Assembly (NCBI GenBank): GCA_024641545.1
Contig: JAHECW010000007.1
Span: 1-63,970, forward strand
Length of the DNA stretch: 63,970 bases
Origin: Acidobacteriota bacterium
GTDB taxonomy: Bacteria; Acidobacteriota; Thermoanaerobaculia; Thermoanaerobaculales; Sulfomarinibacteraceae
Reading direction: 5' to 3'
Below the pieces are notes generated by a model that was not told the DNA's origin, did no database searches, and worked only from the letters and a program-made list of their open reading frames with translations. A program made the translations under genes and the position numbers. Positions 5,041 through 20,125 of this stretch are shown piece after piece (within the stretch, counting starts at the first letter, position 1; every line of letters begins with the position of its first letter).

Positions 5041-6116
5041 TCACGCCTCGGCGGTGATGGTCTCGTGAAGGTCGGCAAAAGCCTCGCCGGCCTCACGGAA
5101 GAACTCAGAGGCGGGGTCCCTGCCGACGAAACCGACCACGTGGATCCCATCGCGGATCCGCCGAAGATCCGCGAGGTGGTCGCTCCAGCAGCGATCGGTG
5201 ACGATCAGGACGAGTCGCCTTTCGACCTCCTCGAGGAGCGTGCGACCGCAGGATTCGCAGAGCCCGAGCCAACGCTCGGGACAGCGGTCCTCCAACAACC
5301 CAGGCCGCGTCTCGCCGAGGAGAACCTCCTGCCGCCAACCCTGGAGGGACTGCCTTTGGGTCTCCACAACCGCGGAGAGCTCCCACAACCGACGCCGGGT
5401 GTCGAAGCTCTCGCCCTCGATGATCCGCTGGGCGCGGGAGATCTCATGGGCGAGCACGGGCGAGTCTGCGGGGCTGTCCTGCCGGGCGGGCAATACGCGC
5501 GCGCCGATCAGCTTCCCGACCCCGTAACGCTGGATCAGCGGGTCCTCCAGGCTGACGAAGAACCGTGACGATCCCGGGTCCCCCTGCCGGCCGGCGCGCC
5601 CGCGCAGCTGCCGGTCGATCCGACGACTTTCGTGGCGGTTTGTCCCGATGACGTAGAGGCCTTCGAGCTCGACGACACGGACGCACCGGTTGTGCGGCGG
5701 CACGACCACCACCCGGAGATCGTAGAGGTTGTCGCGGCTGAGAAACCGCTCCACCCTGGCAGATCCTGCCTCGGTGAGAAAGATGTTGTGTCCGTACTCG
5801 TCGGTGTCGAAGTCGATCTCCGGATCGAGCCTCCGGGCGAGGGCGGCAACCGAGACCGGCATAGACGGGACCCATCCACGCCGCATCCCGCCGGGCGAGA
5901 TAGTCGTTGAAAGTCAGCACGTGGGCGCCGCCCCCGTTGACGGCCGCGAAGCTCGCCGGCGACGCGCTCGAGCGAATCATCATCGAGGTGCCGAAGACGC
6001 TCTCCGACGGCGTCGATGCGCCTCAGCTGCGGCGCGAAGGACTCGATTCCGACCTCCACCGGGTCGCCGAGCCAGCGGCGAAATCGGCGTTTCAGCCCGC
6101 CCGCAGTCCCGCCTAT
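5041..6116 (-). pseudogene. secA-like pseudogene with two frame changes and large internal deletions
   Basis: Remnant of a SecA-type translocase ATPase spread over all three minus frames. Frame 1 (about 6100-5960) gives LKRRFRRWLG...[10 protein letters not shown], like the SecA N-terminus. Frame 2 (about 5950-5850) gives [19 protein letters not shown], the block that follows Walker A in SecA. Frame 3 (5886-5041) gives [18 protein letters not shown], then [20 protein letters not shown] with [19 protein letters not shown], and ends with a helical scaffold-like region ([15 protein letters not shown]). Walker A, Walker B and most of the motor are missing, as is the C-terminal zinc tail. A good ribosome site (GGGAGG) sits six bases before an ATA (6116-6114) in frame with the N-terminal part, which looks like a mutated ATG. 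Full SecA is about 850-900 residues; only about 340 codons remain. A functional secA must lie elsewhere. Confidence 0.8.
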
Positions 6117-6939: not shown

Positions 6940-8472
6940 TCAGAAATGACCCGATTCCGATTCGCGGGATGGGCCGGCCATGTTGTCGCGCCACCGGTCC
7001 CTGACTTCGCGGGGGATGTCGAGATCGTTGCCGACGACCGCGAGCAGGGCCGGGTAGAGCCATTCATCACCTGAGGCCAATACCGCCGCAGCGGCCCGGA
7101 CTTCGGGCCGATCCCGCCCCGCAATGCACCTCGACCGACGGCGTCTCACCATCCCGGCGCCGTCACCCAGCGCAAGCTCGACACCCGCGGCGGCAGCGGC
7201 GTCCACCAGCCGGCGCTCACCCTCGGTGAGCTGTCGGGGGTTGACGGCCCGAGGACCCCAAAGACCACGGGCGGCGTGCCAGCCACGACCGAGAACATCA
7301 ACCACCGCGGCCCCGAGTTGGAGCCGCCGCCGCCCGCCGTCGGGACTTTCGATTCTGATACCGAGCAGCTCGTTGAGCAGACTGCGTTCCTCGGTGGAGG
7401 CCTCGATCAGGAGCTCCTCGAGATCGCCGTCATCGCCGGATCCGGGTTCAACCGCCACAACCACCCCACCCTGGTGCCCCGCCCACGTCAACAGTGCCGA
7501 CGGCGACTCCATCCACCGCCGCGCCCCTTCCCGGACAGGAACAACAGGAGAGGCCAACACCTGCTCCCGACGAAGACCGAGGGTGGCGGATCGAAGGAGC
7601 AGCGTGGTCACCCGGCTGCGCACCGCCTCGTCCACCGACGGCAACCGATCGACAAGCAGCAGCAGCATCCGGACCGCCTCGTCGATCAGACGATCGAGGT
7701 GGGGGTTGGCCGCCGCCCTGAGTTCGTCGGCGCTGGACCCGGCCGGCGCCTCCCGGCTCATTTCGACGGCGGCCGAGAAGGCGGGGAACCCCGGGACCAC
7801 CGCTCGCGCGGTAAGGACCCCGTGTTCGAGGAGCCAGAGGGTGGGGACATCACCCGTGGCCGTCACCGCGAGCTCACCTGGCAACGGATCGGTGATCCGC
7901 ATCCGATAGAGGCCCTCGGGAAACCCACGCTCGACCGGTCGGCCGCAGATTTCAACCGGAATCGGGAAAAACCGCAGCGCCGTCCGAAGCCAGGCCGACG
8001 CTCGACGAGACTCGAGCCCGCGGCACCGCCAGGTCAGGGTCGTCGACGGGGGACCGGTCTCGAGCTCGTCGTTGCCGAGCCCGACGCGGCCGCCCCGAGC
8101 TTCCATCCGGCTCGACCCGCCCGCGGTCCGAACGACCAGCTCCAGCCGGGCGCCCGGGAAACCCGTCGCCCACAGCAGGGCCGAAAGACCCGCGTCCTCG
8201 ACCCGGGCGATCGCGGCCTGCCGTCGCATCCGCGGGGCCTCGCGATCGAAGACCCGCGCCAGGTCGCTCAGCTCCTCGTCGTCGGCGAGCACCCCATCAC
8301 AGCGAAAACAAAACCCGCCCCACACCTTCTCGATCGCCACCCTGGCGACACCGCGGGCGTTGGCGAGCCGCACCAACTCGGCCGGAACCTGCCAGGAGCC
8401 CTGGAGCTGGGCGCTGCACAGGGTCGCAACCTCGGCGGCGACATCGATGGCGAGGAGATCATCGGCCCTCAT
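6940..8472 (-). CDS. Uncharacterised partner of the GHKL ATPase/transglutaminase protein
   Basis: 510-residue cytoplasmic protein, no signal peptide or clear membrane segment. Its ATG (8470-8472) overlaps the stop of the upstream gene as ATGA, so the two are translationally coupled. I do not recognise a named family. The first 230 residues follow the order of an Hsp90-like N-terminal half without its nucleotide motifs: AELVRLANARGVARVAIEKV, VEDAGLSALLWATGFPGARLELVV, then TTLTWRCRGLESRRASAWLRTALRFF and PIPVEICGRPVERG, which resembles the middle (transducer) region. The second half has VTTLLLRSATLGLRREQVLASPVVPV and LLTWAGHQGGVVVAVEP, patterns seen after the ATPase in sacsin/HtpG-like proteins. 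Cys82 and Cys85 (FCFRCDG) could bind metal only with help from elsewhere. Inference: a degenerate paralogue or client adaptor for the adjacent ATPase. Confidence 0.6.
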   Translation of the reverse strand: MRADDLLAIDVAAEVATLCSAQLQGSWQVPAELVRLANARGVARVAIEKVWGGFCFRCDGVLADDEELSDLARVFDREAPRMRRQAAIARVEDAGLSALLWATGFPGARLELVVRTAGGSSRMEARGGRVGLGNDELETGPPSTTLTWRCRGLESRRASAWLRTALRFFPIPVEICGRPVERGFPEGLYRMRITDPLPGELAVTATGDVPTLWLLEHGVLTARAVVPGFPAFSAAVEMSREAPAGSSADELRAAANPHLDRLIDEAVRMLLLLVDRLPSVDEAVRSRVTTLLLRSATLGLRREQVLASPVVPVREGARRWMESPSALLTWAGHQGGVVVAVEPGSGDDGDLEELLIEASTEERSLLNELLGIRIESPDGGRRRLQLGAAVVDVLGRGWHAARGLWGPRAVNPRQLTEGERRLVDAAAAAGVELALGDGAGMVRRRRSRCIAGRDRPEVRAAAAVLASGDEWLYPALLAVVGNDLDIPREVRDRWRDNMAGPSRESESGHF

Positions 8473-11261
8473 TCGCGCGACTCCGCCCGCTCGAGCACGG
8501 TCTCCACCGCGAGCCGAGCCAGCAGCCGCCGCTTCTTGCCGGTTGAGATCCGCAGGCGCTCGGCGACCCGATCGGCGAGCAGGAGCGTCGCCGACCGGGG
8601 ATGGGATTCGCCGAGTTCGAGGACCCGCAGCCACAAGGCGCCGCCGTCGTCCACCGCGACCAGACGGTGGCGCCGTCCGAACCCGGCCAGCGCACCGTCG
8701 AGAGTCGCAATCTCCCGGCCGAGCTCGGATGCGATGATCACCTTCCACGTCTCCCCCACCCCCGCCGCGGCGTCAGCCAGGCGTTCGGTCGCCGGGTGTT
8801 CGCGACCGCGGTCGAGGATCTCGCTCCACCGATCGAGGTCGATGGCCCCGAGAACCCCCGCCACGGCGCGGCCCTCGGGGCGGCTTCCGTCGATGACGGG
8901 CACGCCGGATTCAACCGCACGACGGGCCAGTGTAGATGAGCGGGCGCTGACCGCCAGCCGACGCTGGCGGGCGAGCGAGCGAGCTCGATCGAGGCTGAAC
9001 GGCGATCCGCCGAGCGTCGGCACAACTCCTCGCGAAAAGAGCGCCGGCACCTCGCGGTAGGCCTCGGGCCGCGCCAACGCTCCTCGGAGAATTCCGGCGA
9101 GATCCGGCACATCGGTCGATTGAATACGGTGCACGACCATTCGGCGGCGCGCGATGAGGATGACACCTGCGGTCGCCAGACCGAACGCCAGCGCCGCGGC
9201 GACCACGATCACGCTCGGAAAACCGGGAACCGGGCGCGGCCCCGCTCCTGTCGCATCGGGAGCCGCGACCCGGATTTCGGACCCGGCCTCGCCCTGGTCG
9301 GTCGGTGACGTGTTCGCCGACGAAACAGCCGGACCGCCCCGACTCGCATCGACCGCGCGCCACATCCCGCCTTCTCCGCGGTACTCCACCCACGCGTGCA
9401 GGCCGGGCAGCACGTTCCCACCGGCGCCGACAAAACCCACCGCCAACCGCGCCGGGACACCGGCCCGGGCGATGACGGCGGCCAGGAGCGCGTTCTGGAC
9501 ATCACAGTCGCCGGCGCCGACAGTCAGACACCGCTCGGCGAACGAGCGCCCCTCCCGAGCCGCGATCCGGTGGTTTTCGACGGTGCGCTCGGAGGTGTCG
9601 TAGACCACCCGCCGTCGGACCCAGTCGCGCGCCGAGATTGCCGCTTCGTCGGCGCCGAGGTCCCGCAGCCGCAGAGCAACAGCGTCCGCCGGCTCCGGGA
9701 GACGGGGCCACGAGCCGCCTGCGGCAGCCTGGATCTCGACGGCCGGTCCCGTGCGGTAGCGAACGGATCCGGCCGGATCCTCCACCACCAGGAGTGGACC
9801 GCCATCGGGCGCCGCCCACAACGCCGCCGAACCGCCCACCACCTTCAGGCTCGCCGGGTCGAGCAGATGACCGGTCGGCAGCGGCAAACGGACATCTCCG
9901 GAGACCCCATCGAGGTCGAGGGTGAACTCGAGGCACGACTCGCTGCATGCGGACCCGAAATAGGGTCTCGGCCCCGAGCTTGTCGGCCCCGGGATCACCC
10001 GACCATCGTCCGTCAATCCGATCACCCGGAAGACGGCCAACATCGGCGCTGCCCGGGCCGGTCGATAGCGGAGCGGCAGACCGACGGGGACGAGACCCAG
10101 GGACGCCACAGCCGGACCCCGATAGCGGTCGGCCGACCCTGCCTCGAGAATGGCGCCCGGGTTTGCCGTCAACCGGTCGGCGCCGCCCCGGCCGAGGCCC
10201 AGCATCCCGACTGCTCCGGTCGCCAGCGCTCCCGTCAGCCACGAGACACCGACCGCGAGGACCACGGCCAGCGCCAGTGCGATCCCGATCGCGCGCACCC
10301 AACCGGTCGAACACAGTTCGCGAAGACGCATGGTCGCTCGGCCGATCGGTCCCAGACCCGCCTCACGGTCGAGCTGACCGCGCACCAGTCGTCGGACAGC
10401 CCGCCGACCCGTGGCCACCAGCTGCCGCAGCTCGCGGTCGGTCCGAGCATCCCCGCGCGCCATGAGCACCTGGAGACGACGGCTGTCGAGGATCACCCGC
10501 GGCACCAGACCGTCCGGAGTGCTCGATCTTCTCCGGCGCCGCCGATCGGGGCCCGTCAGGAGCTCGTCCAGGGTCGCGGTCGTCCGGACTCTGAGGCCAT
10601 GGGCCAGGAGATCGACCTGGGGTCGATCCGCCAGCGCCACCGCGCCCCGAATGCCCGATCGGTAGAACCCGAGAGTCGGGGGCTCGAGCTCGATCTCCGC
10701 CGTCGCCGAGATCGAGTTCACCCTCACATCGAGGATTTCGTTGCTGGAATCTCGTCGCCGGAGATGGCGGGCATCGCGCTGAACCGCGTCCCACACCGCC
10801 CGCACCGGATCGACACCGCCAGCCTTACGTACGAGTTCGATCTCGGTGCCGGTTTCGAGTGAGGTCTTCGATCGCGCGATGGTCTCGAGATCGCCGCTCA
10901 GCCGGAGCTCCCAGCCCGCTTCGCCCGGCGGCGACGAACGCACGAAAATCTCGTCCGGGTCAAAGCGGAGCACCGCCCAGAAGCCGATTCCGAAACGCCC
11001 CGCCGCGTCGTCCTGATTCCGCTTCGATGAGGCATAGAGGGTGAAGAGGTACTTCTGGGCGTGCTCGAACCTCATCCCGCAGCCGTCATCGCGGCAGACG
11101 ATCCGATCGACGCCGTGAGCCCGTTCGACCGTGAAGTCGACTCTTCGGGCGCCGGCGTCGCGCGAGTTCTGCAGCAGTTCGCGAACGAAGACCCAGGCGT
11201 CGCCTCCATAGCGGCGCGCCTCGTGAAACGCCCGCCGACGGAATTCACCCGCAATCGCCAC
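8469..11261 (-). CDS. Membrane GHKL (Hsp90-like) ATPase fused to a transglutaminase-like domain
   Basis: 930 residues. An N-terminal Bergerat-fold ATPase has all nucleotide motifs: ELLQNSRDAGA (Glu28, Asn32, Asp35), DDGCGM (58-63) and GRFGIGFWAV (88-97). The transducer-like part follows, with LDSRRLQVLMARGDARTDRE, typical of Hsp90-like proteins. A membrane segment lies at about 320-350. Residues about 540-650 form a transglutaminase-like papain-fold domain with a complete triad: Cys586 (GAGDCDVQNALL), His622 (LHAWVEYR), Asp638 (WRAVDASRG). A second membrane segment (about 682-705) precedes a 220-residue cytoplasmic C-terminal region. The topology puts the transglutaminase domain outside the membrane and both ends inside. 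The start is GTG 11261-11259, with TACACT exactly six bases upstream and no ribosome site. Role unknown; a chaperone coupled to a protease or crosslinker is an inference. Confidence 0.75.
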   Translation of the reverse strand: MAIAGEFRRRAFHEARRYGGDAWVFVRELLQNSRDAGARRVDFTVERAHGVDRIVCRDDGCGMRFEHAQKYLFTLYASSKRNQDDAAGRFGIGFWAVLRFDPDEIFVRSSPPGEAGWELRLSGDLETIARSKTSLETGTEIELVRKAGGVDPVRAVWDAVQRDARHLRRRDSSNEILDVRVNSISATAEIELEPPTLGFYRSGIRGAVALADRPQVDLLAHGLRVRTTATLDELLTGPDRRRRRRSSTPDGLVPRVILDSRRLQVLMARGDARTDRELRQLVATGRRAVRRLVRGQLDREAGLGPIGRATMRLRELCSTGWVRAIGIALALAVVLAVGVSWLTGALATGAVGMLGLGRGGADRLTANPGAILEAGSADRYRGPAVASLGLVPVGLPLRYRPARAAPMLAVFRVIGLTDDGRVIPGPTSSGPRPYFGSACSESCLEFTLDLDGVSGDVRLPLPTGHLLDPASLKVVGGSAALWAAPDGGPLLVVEDPAGSVRYRTGPAVEIQAAAGGSWPRLPEPADAVALRLRDLGADEAAISARDWVRRRVVYDTSERTVENHRIAAREGRSFAERCLTVGAGDCDVQNALLAAVIARAGVPARLAVGFVGAGGNVLPGLHAWVEYRGEGGMWRAVDASRGGPAVSSANTSPTDQGEAGSEIRVAAPDATGAGPRPVPGFPSVIVVAAALAFGLATAGVILIARRRMVVHRIQSTDVPDLAGILRGALARPEAYREVPALFSRGVVPTLGGSPFSLDRARSLARQRRLAVSARSSTLARRAVESGVPVIDGSRPEGRAVAGVLGAIDLDRWSEILDRGREHPATERLADAAAGVGETWKVIIASELGREIATLDGALAGFGRRHRLVAVDDGGALWLRVLELGESHPRSATLLLADRVAERLRISTGKKRRLLARLAVETVLERAESRE

Positions 11262-11331: not shown

Positions 11332-11535
11332 CTAATAGATCGGATCCGCCTCGAGCCAATACATGTTCGCGCCCGGTTCGAAGTTCTGGTTGGTTTCCTC
11401 ATTCCAGGAAGTGGTCTGCTGACCGCAGCTCGCACAGGCGTGCTCCTCACCCAACATGGTGGCGTCGGTGCGTTCCGAGGACCAGTCGGAGATGGAGCCG
11501 CAGTAAGTGCAACGAATCGGATCGGGTCTCTGCAT
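11332..11535 (-). CDS. Zinc-ribbon miniprotein, 67 residues
   Basis: Small soluble protein with two CxxC knuckles, Cys9/Cys12 (RCTYCGS) and Cys34/Cys37 (ACASCGQQ), spaced as in a zinc ribbon or rubredoxin-like fold. Start ATG at 11533-11535 has a GGAGGG ribosome site eight bases upstream; the longer open frame reaching 11643 has none. The C-terminal third (TSWNEETNQNFEPGANMYWLEADPIY) is acidic and aromatic. No family name can be given. It is oriented with the GHKL gene, but about 70 bases separate them and the latter has its own promoter-like element. A FadR-type palindrome lies 94 bases upstream of its start. Confidence 0.65.
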   Translation of the reverse strand: MQRPDPIRCTYCGSISDWSSERTDATMLGEEHACASCGQQTTSWNEETNQNFEPGANMYWLEADPIY

Positions 11536-11628
11536 GACGTCTACCCTCCACGAGTACAGGGGGGACGCTATCTCATATGAACAGATGGAGAAAAGGCCGG
11601 TTGCGGCAGAAGGTGCCGCACCGCGCCG

Positions 11629-11646
11629 TGAATGAGTATTCATTCA
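11629..11646. promoter_or_regulatory. FadR/TetR-type operator palindrome TGAATGA-N4-TCATTCA
   Basis: TGAATGAGTATTCATTCA matches the box TGAATGA-NTAN-TCATTCA known for the TetR-family fatty-acid regulator FadR of Bacillus, base for base in both arms. It lies 94 bases upstream of the zinc-ribbon gene. No TetR gene is present in the window, so the regulator would be encoded elsewhere. Confidence 0.45.
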
Positions 11647-11889
11647 TAACAAAGGTGTTAGGCATGAGACCTATCGCAATGGAGATCGCAGACAGCCGCA
11701 GATTGGCTCGTCGCAAATTCCACGTCCCGCCACACTAGCGATCACAAACACAGAGTCCGATTGCATCATCAGAAGACCCCATATTCCAGGGCTGGCGAAT
11801 ACTCTTTGACCTGCGCCCCAAAGACCTGATGACCCAACAACCCCTTCAGAACTCTCCCTGGAAGCCTGCGATGAACAAAATGACCTCAC

Positions 11890-11945
11890 CCCCCAGAAAT
11901 TCACGGGGAGGGAGCAAAGCGACCCTCCACGAGGATTTCTGGGGG
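11890..11945 (-). terminator. Long imperfect hairpin downstream of the NTT-like transporter
   Basis: Outer arms CCCCCAGAAAT (11890-11900) and ATTTCTGGGGG (11935-11945) pair perfectly; the inner arms add a further imperfect stem around a loop near 11912-11921. It begins 29 bases after the transporter stop codon and, read on the minus strand, is followed about 10 bases later by CATTTTGTTC. A transcription terminator or a stable 3' end is the simplest reading; the T tract is weak. Confidence 0.45.
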
Positions 11946-11973
11946 CGGGTGGGTGGGCCTGTAAGGCGAGCCG

Positions 11974-14900
11974 CTACAGCAGGGCTTCGTCGGAGTCGGG
12001 GTCCTTGGAGACGACCGTGCGGAAGAGAGCCTTGACGATGTCGATGTTGTTCGACAGGAGATCGAAGAAATCCTCGGCTTCGATGGTCACCAACCTGGTC
12101 TCGGTCTGGGCCACCGCGTGGCCCGACCGCGGCCGCCCGCTGAGAATGTCCGACACCCCGAAACGCCCGTTTGGTCCGACCACTGTTCCACCTTCACCAC
12201 CGCCGCCGAGGCGAACTCGTCCTTCGACAACGCAGTAGAGAGTGTCGGGCGCATCGCCCTTGGAGAAGACCTCTTCACCCTTGCCGAAGGTGTTCTCACT
12301 GGCGATGGCCGCCAACCGAAGAACCTGGTCGGCGTTGCAGTGGGCGAAGAGATCGACGCCCTGGAGAAAGACCATCATCTCGATATGTGCCATGGGTGTC
12401 ATCTGCGTCTCATCCCCCATCCCGATCAGCCCCTTGCCGGGGGGCACCTTTCCGGCCCTCGCCGTGACCCATCTGGCGGTTTCCCGGACCAGGGGATCTT
12501 CCGCCTTTTCGGCCATCCTCGCCACCAGGGCGTAGAGCGAGACAATTTCATCGCACCAAACCGTGTGCATCGCCGCCAAGACGATCCCCCGGCTCGCGGG
12601 GTCCCTTTTCGAATCGATCTGGATGAGACGATCGAGGGTCGCCTCGGGCGATTCCAAGAGGATGCCGAAGTGGAGCCGCGCTCGACGCAGCTTGTCCTCC
12701 GGCGGCGAGTCGTCGATGACCGAAAAGACATCACGCCGCAGGGTTCCGGACAGGCTGTTGTCGAGATACTCGAGGGCCCTCGCCCGGAGGTTGGGCTCCC
12801 GACTCATCAGGCTGCGGCGCGCGGCCCGGACATCTTCGGGTCGTTCAATCAGCTCGATCAGGCCGAAAATGTTGCTCACCAGACTCTGCATTCGCTGGGC
12901 GAGGAGTTGCTGAGGCAGGGTCGGCACCCGGTCGGACTTCCGCCACACCGCAAGGGGTCCCTCGAGTTGAGCGTGATGCAGGGACGAGATGGCCCACAGA
13001 TCGGCCAGGCAGCGAAGATAGCGCGTTGCTTCGGCATGAATCCGGGCGCGGATCGCACGACCCGTGAACCGTGTCCCACTGTGGCGGGTGCGCATGAAAC
13101 ACAGCGCTTCGACCATCTTCGATCGCAGCATCGTGTCGCCGGCGTCGAGGCTCGCTTCCAGCGCATCGGCGGCCGATTGGACGCCGAGGAGCGCGAGGGT
13201 CTTCGGCACGGCGCGACGCACCCAGATCTGTTCATCGTCCGAGTCCATGAAATGCCGCAACGGCAGGACCGCATCCTCTCCGATGGCGACCAGAGCCTCC
13301 CTCGCCTCGTGCTTGAGTCGGCGGTTGCCCATGAGCGACACCAGGGTTGGAACGTAGATCGGATTGGGTCCATAGCGGTCGAGACGCTTCTTGATCGAGT
13401 GGATCGCTTTCCGGACAACCGTCAGATCGGTGTCGTACAGGAGCTGCAGCAGGATCGACTCGGCGATCGGACCGGCTACCTGTCCCAGGGCGCGGGCCGC
13501 TTCGGCTCGCACCGCCGAATCGCGATCCACGACCATCTTCGCGAGAGCTTCGTTGGCACGACCGGCCGAGGTCGGGTCATCGGCGGCCAGGAGGCTCGCC
13601 ACCGCGGTCGCCCGCACCTCGGGATCCGGGTCGTCGAGCCGCTCGCGCATCAGACCGGATGACTTCTCCCCGCTGAGTCTGGCGAGGGTCTGCATCGCGC
13701 CGCTGCGAACCTCGGCATTCTCGTCGGTGATGGCGTTCTTGACCAGCTCGACGGCATCCACCCGACCGGTGTCGGCGAGAATCTTGAGGGTCTTCTTCCG
13801 CACTCTGCTGTCGGTGTGGTGGAGCAGCAGCGGCGAAACCAGAGAACCCTGGCCGTACGACGACAACAGCTCGAGACTGTGCAGCACCTGACGAGGGTCC
13901 GAGCTGCCCAACGCCTGGATCAGGGTGGTGATCGTCGTCAGATCGGTGGGATCGATCGAGGCATCTGGCTGGATGATCCCCGACTTGAGTCCGGTGCGGT
14001 ACTCGTGCACGTACTCCTTGCGGACCCGGACCGTCAGCAGCAGCCACGACACCAGCACCGCCGCCGTCAACCACGAGACATAGGCGGGCGGAAGCCAGGC
14101 AAACGTCACCGGGAGGATCATCAGCGCAGCCAACCCCTTGGCGAAACTCTGAACGAAAACATCGATGAACGCCTTGGCGCGGACCCGGAGGTTGGCGGGC
14201 ACCGGCAGGAAGAGCAGCTCGCGGGTCGCCTGGTCCACCGAGTGCCGCAGGCTCCCCTCGGAGATCATCAGGATCCAGACCAGCGGGTAGACCGCCGGCG
14301 ATCCCACCGCGAGCGCGATCACGACCGCGACCTGGGTCAGCCCCACGGTCCCCGGCAGGACCCGCATCGCGACCCCGACGCCGAGGGCGCGATGGATGCG
14401 CCGGGTGAAGACCAGCTGGAAGATGAATCCGACGACCCCCATGAGGATGAAGTACTGGCTGATGACCGAGGTCCGCGTGTCGAGCTGCTCGGCCTTCGCC
14501 ACCGTCTCGGTCGCCTTTTCGACAAACCAGTAGAACTGCCAGCCCACCAGCTGGCCGACCACGACGGTCGCCGCCAGGAGCCCCGTGATGAGCAGCAGCA
14601 GATGTGAACCGCGGATGATCTGAAGGCCGTCTCGGGCGTCCTCCACCCGCGCGCGTCGGGTCGCCATCGGAGGCGGCCGGGTGTTGGTCCGGGAGCGCTC
14701 GATCAGGACCACGAAGACCAGTATCACCAGCACCAGAAGGGCGCAGGCGAGGAGCGTTGCCCGGGTCCCGACGGCCCTGGTGACGCCCCAGGCGAGGAGG
14801 CCGCCCGGAATCGCACCGAGCAGCCCGCCCGCACCGATGAACGCGAAAAGCCGCCGGGCCTGGCGGGGATCGAAGACGTGGTTGGCGAAGGACCAGACCT

Positions 14901-15345
14901 GTGAGACCGCGATGGCGAACGCCATGCCGAGCCAGACATAGTAGAGGACGACCACCCACGATGCGTTCAAACCATAGAGAAGAAAGAAGATGAAGAACCC
15001 GGCCGAGTGGAGCGCCGTCAGCCCGACGATCAGCACCGAGAGCTTCACCTTCGCGGCCAGCCGCGAGTAGAGCAGCAGCACCGGGTACGAGACCAGGGCC
15101 ACCGCGAGGTAGACATAGGGCAGATTCTCGGCGCCGATGACGTTGATGAACGACGCCTGGCGCACCGATTTCCCGGCAAAATGAACCGTGGTCAGAACCA
15201 GGAAGTAGAAAAAGAAGAGCCAGGCGAGGCCCCCTTCGCCCGGCCGAATGCCGAAGGCCGAGCCGACGAAGAAACCACGCAGCCCACCCGGGTGTGGGCC
15301 GTTCAACGAGCTCACCTGATTCTCTGATTCTGTCGTTTGCACCAC
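11974..15345 (-). CDS. NTT (ATP/ADP translocase-like) transporter fused to HEAT repeats and a cyclic-nucleotide-binding domain
   Basis: 1123 residues. About 1-445 is a 12-helix transporter of the NTT/TlcA type (FVLTTVHFAGKSVRQASFI, VWSFANHVFDPRQARRLFAFIGAGG, ILMISEGSLRHSVDQATRELLFLPV). About 470-900 consists of HEAT-type alpha-helical repeats (VRKKTLKILADTGRVDAV, VRSGAMQTLARLSG, VRATAVASLLAADD, VRAEAARALGQVAG and others). About 1000-1105 is a cNMP-binding-like beta roll (FGKGEEVFSKGDAPDTLYCVVEGRVRLGG, then a Ser-Gly-Arg-Pro-Arg-rich stretch). NTT proteins exchange nucleotides in intracellular parasites, but free-living bacteria also carry them, some fused to HEAT repeats; the substrate here is unknown. 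Start is one of two adjacent GTG codons; TACCGT lies five bases upstream of the first and there is no ribosome site. Confidence 0.8.
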   Translation of the reverse strand: MVQTTESENQVSSLNGPHPGGLRGFFVGSAFGIRPGEGGLAWLFFFYFLVLTTVHFAGKSVRQASFINVIGAENLPYVYLAVALVSYPVLLLYSRLAAKVKLSVLIVGLTALHSAGFFIFFLLYGLNASWVVVLYYVWLGMAFAIAVSQVWSFANHVFDPRQARRLFAFIGAGGLLGAIPGGLLAWGVTRAVGTRATLLACALLVLVILVFVVLIERSRTNTRPPPMATRRARVEDARDGLQIIRGSHLLLLITGLLAATVVVGQLVGWQFYWFVEKATETVAKAEQLDTRTSVISQYFILMGVVGFIFQLVFTRRIHRALGVGVAMRVLPGTVGLTQVAVVIALAVGSPAVYPLVWILMISEGSLRHSVDQATRELLFLPVPANLRVRAKAFIDVFVQSFAKGLAALMILPVTFAWLPPAYVSWLTAAVLVSWLLLTVRVRKEYVHEYRTGLKSGIIQPDASIDPTDLTTITTLIQALGSSDPRQVLHSLELLSSYGQGSLVSPLLLHHTDSRVRKKTLKILADTGRVDAVELVKNAITDENAEVRSGAMQTLARLSGEKSSGLMRERLDDPDPEVRATAVASLLAADDPTSAGRANEALAKMVVDRDSAVRAEAARALGQVAGPIAESILLQLLYDTDLTVVRKAIHSIKKRLDRYGPNPIYVPTLVSLMGNRRLKHEAREALVAIGEDAVLPLRHFMDSDDEQIWVRRAVPKTLALLGVQSAADALEASLDAGDTMLRSKMVEALCFMRTRHSGTRFTGRAIRARIHAEATRYLRCLADLWAISSLHHAQLEGPLAVWRKSDRVPTLPQQLLAQRMQSLVSNIFGLIELIERPEDVRAARRSLMSREPNLRARALEYLDNSLSGTLRRDVFSVIDDSPPEDKLRRARLHFGILLESPEATLDRLIQIDSKRDPASRGIVLAAMHTVWCDEIVSLYALVARMAEKAEDPLVRETARWVTARAGKVPPGKGLIGMGDETQMTPMAHIEMMVFLQGVDLFAHCNADQVLRLAAIASENTFGKGEEVFSKGDAPDTLYCVVEGRVRLGGGGEGGTVVGPNGRFGVSDILSGRPRSGHAVAQTETRLVTIEAEDFFDLLSNNIDIVKALFRTVVSKDPDSDEALL

Positions 15346-18454: not shown

Positions 18455-20125
<1,671 letters not shown>

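Follow-up and report, generated by a model that had tools for sequence, protein, structure and literature searches.

Two adjacent genes of an Acidobacteriota bacterium (Sulfomarinibacteraceae) are predicted to encode a membrane-anchored Hsp90-like ATPase with an inserted transglutaminase domain (gene A) and a soluble Hsp90-like partner resembling a pseudo-ATPase (gene B). Together, their products may form an asymmetric, membrane-anchored Hsp90-like machine in which an ATP cycle gates a thiol enzyme outside the cytoplasm, a proposal that we regard as evenly poised. The anatomy of the proteins and the pairing of A with B are well supported. The stretch of DNA analysed, termed here the window, comprises 63,970 nt (assembly GCA_024641545.1, contig JAHECW010000007.1, positions 1-63,970). 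Both genes are located on its minus strand, and translation confirmed their ORFs at 8469-11261 (A, 930 amino acids, with GTG as start codon) and 6940-8472 (B, 510 amino acids). The two genes share 4 bp where the start of B meets the stop of A (ATGA, 8469-8472), which is the overlap with a 510-residue gene that had been described in the original prediction. Gene A was identified from its ORF, Pfam matches and homologues, and gene B from its ORF, Foldseek and alignment.

Residues 1-165 of A (10767-11261, minus strand) constitute a Bergerat/GHKL ATP-binding domain. Pfam analysis identified HATPase_c_3 in residues 25-99 (9e-11, above the cut-off), and the N (E..N..D), G1 (DxGxG) and G2 (GxxGxG) motifs of the GHKL superfamily are all present, the ATP site being formed of E28/N32/D35, DDGCGM and GRFGIGF. 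Eleven residues of this domain (E28, N32, D35, D58, G60, G62, K80, G88, F90, G91 and G93) are invariant in 46/46 covered A sequences. The nearest NCBIfam models are the sacsin-type, 'HSP90 family' and MutL models, all with scores below their cut-offs. Comparison of the A profile with the PDB gave the N-domain of HtpG as top match for the ATPase part (1.3e-9), and hhalign of A to HtpG (probability 98) likewise places the domain with the Hsp90-type N domains.

The residues that follow, 166-320 (10302-10766, minus strand), resemble the first half of an Hsp90-type middle domain. Foldseek aligned the model of A to TRAP1 over about 267 columns (4e-10); the model is of moderate quality (mean pLDDT 67, pTM 0.36), with the ATP lid poorly predicted. 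In Hsp90, the arginine of the loop DSxDLPLNxSR contacts ATP. Arg269 of A (10455-10457) lies in a DSxxLxVxxxR motif and is invariant in 47/47 A sequences. This motif aligned without gaps to DSADLPLNISR of HtpG with a score of 22.5, the best of 50 column shuffles reaching 20.0, which is a weak match (E about 0.01); in the same comparison B gave no match to a motif of this type. Arg269 may thus occupy the place of the catalytic arginine motif of Hsp90, although the alignment is suggestive only. As neither A nor B matches PF00183, the Pfam family of the Hsp90 middle and C-terminal parts, at E<=1, any relationship to classical Hsp90 beyond the N domain is a distant one, and the Hsp90 likeness of the middle and C-terminal parts of both proteins, as seen with Foldseek, is at the level of fold only.

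A first membrane helix is predicted at residues 324-342 of A (10236-10292, minus strand; hydropathy 2.5) and a helix occurs here in nearly all of 43 homologues. It is followed by residues 345-680 (9222-10229, minus strand), a beta-rich segment leading into a TgpA-like transglutaminase core (9345-9647), and by a second helix at residues 685-703 (9153-9209, minus strand; hydropathy 2.6), after which comes the sequence RRR. Transglut_core (PF01841) was matched in residues 539-639 with 40 bits against a cut-off of 23 (4.7e-10). The putative catalytic residues Cys586 (9504-9506), His622 (9396-9398) and Asp638 (9348-9350) are invariant in 45/45 covered homologues. The periplasmic domain of TgpA (PDB accession no. 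6g49) was the top PDB match of the A profile for the transglutaminase part (1.5e-8) and was also matched by the model of A in Foldseek (1.9e-7); that the three residues come together in space is taken from homology to this structure. A hydrophobic segment is present on either side of the transglutaminase domain in 40/43 homologues, with roughly constant spacing, and across the 43 homologues positive charge is mostly higher in the flanks facing the GHKL and C-terminal parts. From the hydropathy and this distribution of charge, the transglutaminase domain is predicted to lie outside the cytoplasm and the remainder of A in the cytosol. The cytosolic C-terminal part comprises residues 705-930 and the stop codon (8469-9149, minus strand), and was delimited by hhalign, by hmmsearch in relatives lacking the insert and by a pLDDT of about 90. 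ORF, Pfam and hydropathy are therefore in agreement with the chain originally proposed, namely 930 residues running through ATPase, helix, transglutaminase domain, helix and C-terminal domain; its complete Bergerat site (Glu28/Asn32/Asp35, DDGCGM, GxxGxG), its intact Cys586-His622-Asp638 triad and its two flanking membrane segments are also seen among the homologues.

Since the ATP site and the triad are invariant throughout the covered sequences, both active sites of A are under joint selection. This strict conservation would suit signalling in either direction. A would have the same anatomy if it were a sensor working from the outside in, with an envelope substrate at the transglutaminase-fold domain controlling the cytosolic Hsp90-like ATPase, which in turn would act on cytosolic clients. 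Many GHKL proteins that have extracytoplasmic domains, such as the histidine kinases, act as sensors, and A is predicted to carry such a domain. We consider this rather unlikely, as neither a HisKA/DHp domain nor a receiver was identified in A or B with Pfam and NCBIfam, and a mere binding domain would have no need of a triad retained in every covered homologue.

Protein B gave no Pfam match above cut-off. Its residues 1-150 (8023-8472, minus strand) are recognisable by hhalign, alignment and a MutL match as a degenerate GHKL domain, in which Glu32 is mostly kept and the Asn and GxxGxG are lost. Asn occurs at the ATP-site position in 0/41 B sequences and Asp never occurs at the position of Asp35, with the Glu kept in 32/41; B is accordingly predicted to be a pseudo-ATPase throughout. 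The B profile matched the N domains of MutL in the PDB (9e-4), TRAP1 being weaker, and the model of B (mean pLDDT 82.5) was aligned by Foldseek to whole TRAP1/Hsp90 chains across all domains (best 3e-14), with a large rmsd since the domain orientations differ. Using hhalign, the N-terminal halves of the two proteins (A_N and B_N) were matched to each other at E 3e-15 (probability 98.5) and the C-terminal parts (A_C, 705-930, and B_C) at E 7e-6 (probability 85), while nothing was found in 4/4 control cross-pairings of the halves. As the N and C halves match in order and the cross-controls are negative, A and B are taken to be paralogues along the Hsp90-like length. This homology is visible only with broad alignments and matched halves, direct hhalign of full A against B with alignments of few sequences giving no match. 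The comparisons and the model thus show B as a predicted full-length degenerate paralogue of the A chain, without the helix-enzyme-helix insert or a usable ATP site. B had been thought to resemble an Hsp90 middle and C-terminal part lacking the ATP site: the loss of the site held, and the restriction to middle and C-terminal parts did not, for a degenerate GHKL N domain is kept.

The nature of the insert in A is clarified by relatives in Myxococcota, in which hmmsearch detected A_N followed by A_C within a few dozen residues. Because these relatives join A_N directly to A_C, A is best described as an Hsp90-like chain carrying a helix-enzyme-helix insert. Six insert-free pairs were located in Myxococcota (L107:4858-9501 and L108:5535-8999; L109:552-5054, L110:2235-5876 and L111:921-5870, these three on the minus strand; and L112:6090-9875). 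Like A-B, each consists of an active Hsp90-like gene preceding a gene with a B-like pseudo-GHKL domain; unlike A-B, no helices or transglutaminase domain were matched in the first protein, and the partner is a giant protein that opens with the pseudo-GHKL domain, of which at least 1150-1650 amino acids are seen, with no Pfam match. These loci apparently represent a second, undescribed branch of active/pseudo Hsp90-like pairs.

That an Hsp90-like chain exists without the enzyme would also be expected if the helices of A did nothing other than co-locate two independent activities, a chaperone pair and an envelope thiol peptidase, for example at a site of secretion or assembly; domain fusion by itself implies co-localisation and not allostery. 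An uncoupled tether of this kind is judged unlikely. The insert is not attached at an end of the chain: it lies between parts that move in Hsp90, and both catalytic sites are kept in every covered homologue.

In a broad scan, each GTDB species was represented by one genome and full-length rows were used, since partial sequences diluted the conserved stretches; A was identified at 48 loci. These belong to Acidobacteriota (Thermoanaerobaculales, Holophagae, Vicinamibacteria), Aminicenantes, Myxococcota (Nannocystis, Enhygromyxa, Plesiocystis, Polyangia and others) and a few bins labelled proteobacterium or unplaced. B adjoins A in 42/43 loci having sequence past the end of A, the exception being an Aminicenantes bin (L062) with A and no detectable B. 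Several members of the genus or family to which the window belongs encode A in full or nearly so, with B directly after A wherever there was room; in one (G003), the A gene is apparently split by contig ends. In a sample of 247 genomes from the phylum Acidobacteriota, the same 10 encode both A and B, and no others encode either. This count omits G052 and G123, which gave weak B matches and were rejected as genomes with B only, their matches being other GHKL ORFs that fit A_N at least as well as B_N. Likewise, G331, a candidate for A without B (E 1e-20), was rejected because a divergent B adjoins A. Within Myxococcota the tally of genomes covered the family Nannocystaceae, where B was found in 25/29 genomes, one copy each, and in the complete cases compared it adjoins an A gene that includes the transglutaminase domain. 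The A-B unit is single copy and nearly core in this family. Pairwise identities of A and B are correlated across 41 loci (r = 0.95, a value that ignores shared descent and species history), and in the tree the unit groups mostly by lineage. No homologue was found in which the two halves are separate, unrelated genes. The two genes therefore co-occur nearly always, in which respect the original prediction was borne out.

The neighbours of the unit are varied and mostly ordinary housekeeping genes, and among those scanned no third conserved gene was found past local synteny in Nannocystis and the genus of the window. In the window, a remnant of a SecA gene consisting only of pieces of SecA domains lies just downstream of B (5041-5965, minus strand), two full-length SecA genes being present elsewhere in the same genome. 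Upstream of A (11332-15345, minus strand) are an ORF for a 67-amino-acid Cys-rich (zinc-ribbon-like) protein and one for a protein of 1123 amino acids, the latter combining an MFS-type transporter, HEAT repeats and a cyclic-nucleotide-binding domain; ORFs matching this pair in approximate size and order were seen upstream of A within the same genus. A Cpn60/TCP-1 chaperonin of 552 amino acids is encoded about 7 kb from the unit (18467-20125, plus strand). In Enhygromyxa, Plesiocystis and a Polyangia bin, a protein with an IgGFc_binding domain is encoded upstream of A (L043:6177-7934, L046:6169-7827 and L077:6285-7922, respectively); it is a possible lead to a substrate. Classical HtpG (PF00183) was not found in the 99% complete genome of the window (G000) or in two genomes of the same genus; some relatives encode both HtpG and the A-B unit.

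As the neighbours are varied and ordinary and the tree follows lineage, a housekeeping envelope role is likelier than mobile defence, and the unit is probably a factor for quality control or maturation in the envelope. That the unit is a defence or conflict system, with the GHKL ATPase sensing invasion and the thiol peptidase as effector by a logic like that of MoxR or GreA/B-type systems with transglutaminase-like effectors, is considered very improbable. Transglutaminase-like peptidases do serve as effectors in conflict systems, those described having other designs (PMC7159879, PMC8195603), and weak PADLOC matches to TmtA and MzaB were obtained. These span only about 100 residues, all in the ATPase domain, with about 90/1486 model positions of TmtA (Tiamat) and 70/500 of MzaB (MZA) matched. 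No mobile or defence genes occurred among the neighbours scanned, the plasmid collection gave no match to the unit, the unit is nearly core and single copy in Nannocystaceae with a tree clustered by lineage, and the enzyme is predicted to lie outside the cytoplasm.

The preferred reading remains that of a transmembrane Hsp90, an active/pseudo heterodimer whose cytosolic ATP cycle would deliver work across the inner membrane and would gate an envelope peptidase or cross-linker of the transglutaminase fold; in this specific form it is put forward tentatively, at just short of an even chance. Pairing of A with B would involve the Hsp90-like parts at both the C and the N terminus, and the binding of ATP by A would close the clamp; B would serve as a pseudo-ATPase subunit for regulation or client binding. 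The two helices depart from the chain between its ATP-sensing and dimerisation halves, so closing and opening of the clamp would shift their arrangement, and this rearrangement may open, close or position the thiol enzyme outside. The enzyme would then cleave or cross-link (by Gln-Lys transfer) a periplasmic or envelope protein; coupling across the membrane and the substrate are both what we infer. TgpA, for comparison, acts as a transglutaminase in vitro and is important for viability (PMC3507681). As the unit is single copy in cultivated species of Nannocystis, Enhygromyxa and Plesiocystis, it could be tested there by deletion and point mutation.

The envelope is without ATP, and how folding, cleavage or cross-linking is powered there is a real question for bacteria. 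If the proposal is true, an Hsp90-like clamp whose own chain contains an envelope enzyme would answer this question directly and in a manner not described, and the near-obligate pseudo-ATPase partner would offer a natural test case for Hsp90 asymmetry. No paper describing the A-B architecture was found in open-access full text, with subscription literature and preprints outside the search; the original view of an undescribed design stands to that extent, as 'not found' and not as proven.

With HtpG, TRAP1 and Hsp90 the unit shares the Bergerat N domain of A, the alignment of the B model to the whole of TRAP1 and, by a weak match, the DSxxLxVxxxR motif with its invariant Arg. Classical Hsp90 forms a soluble homodimer, which has two ATP sites, whereas A is predicted to cross the membrane and carries an enzyme, B is without an ATP site and PF00183 is unmatched. 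Sensor histidine kinases have a HisKA/DHp domain beside the GHKL domain, which is absent from A and B, and the GHKL domain of A is N-terminal. Sacsin resembles A in that sacsin-type ATPase models match it, below their cut-offs, and differs in that it is found in eukaryotes, is soluble, is built of repeats and lacks a transglutaminase domain (PMC3710099). TgpA (PA2873) is located in the inner membrane and its transglutaminase-like domain, which shares its fold with that of A (6g49), is periplasmic; a similar arrangement is predicted for A. TgpA possesses six helices and a DUF3488 domain and does not itself contain an ATPase, whereas A has an Hsp90-type ATPase in the same chain and two helices only, and the multi-helix DUF3488/TgpA_N domain was not matched in A with Pfam. 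Genes of the TgpA type are linked with MoxR AAA+ ATPases. Because PF00183 and the N-terminal domain of TgpA are unmatched, A-B falls outside classical Hsp90 and the TgpA family; it resembles each of them in parts and, as a system, is a member of neither.
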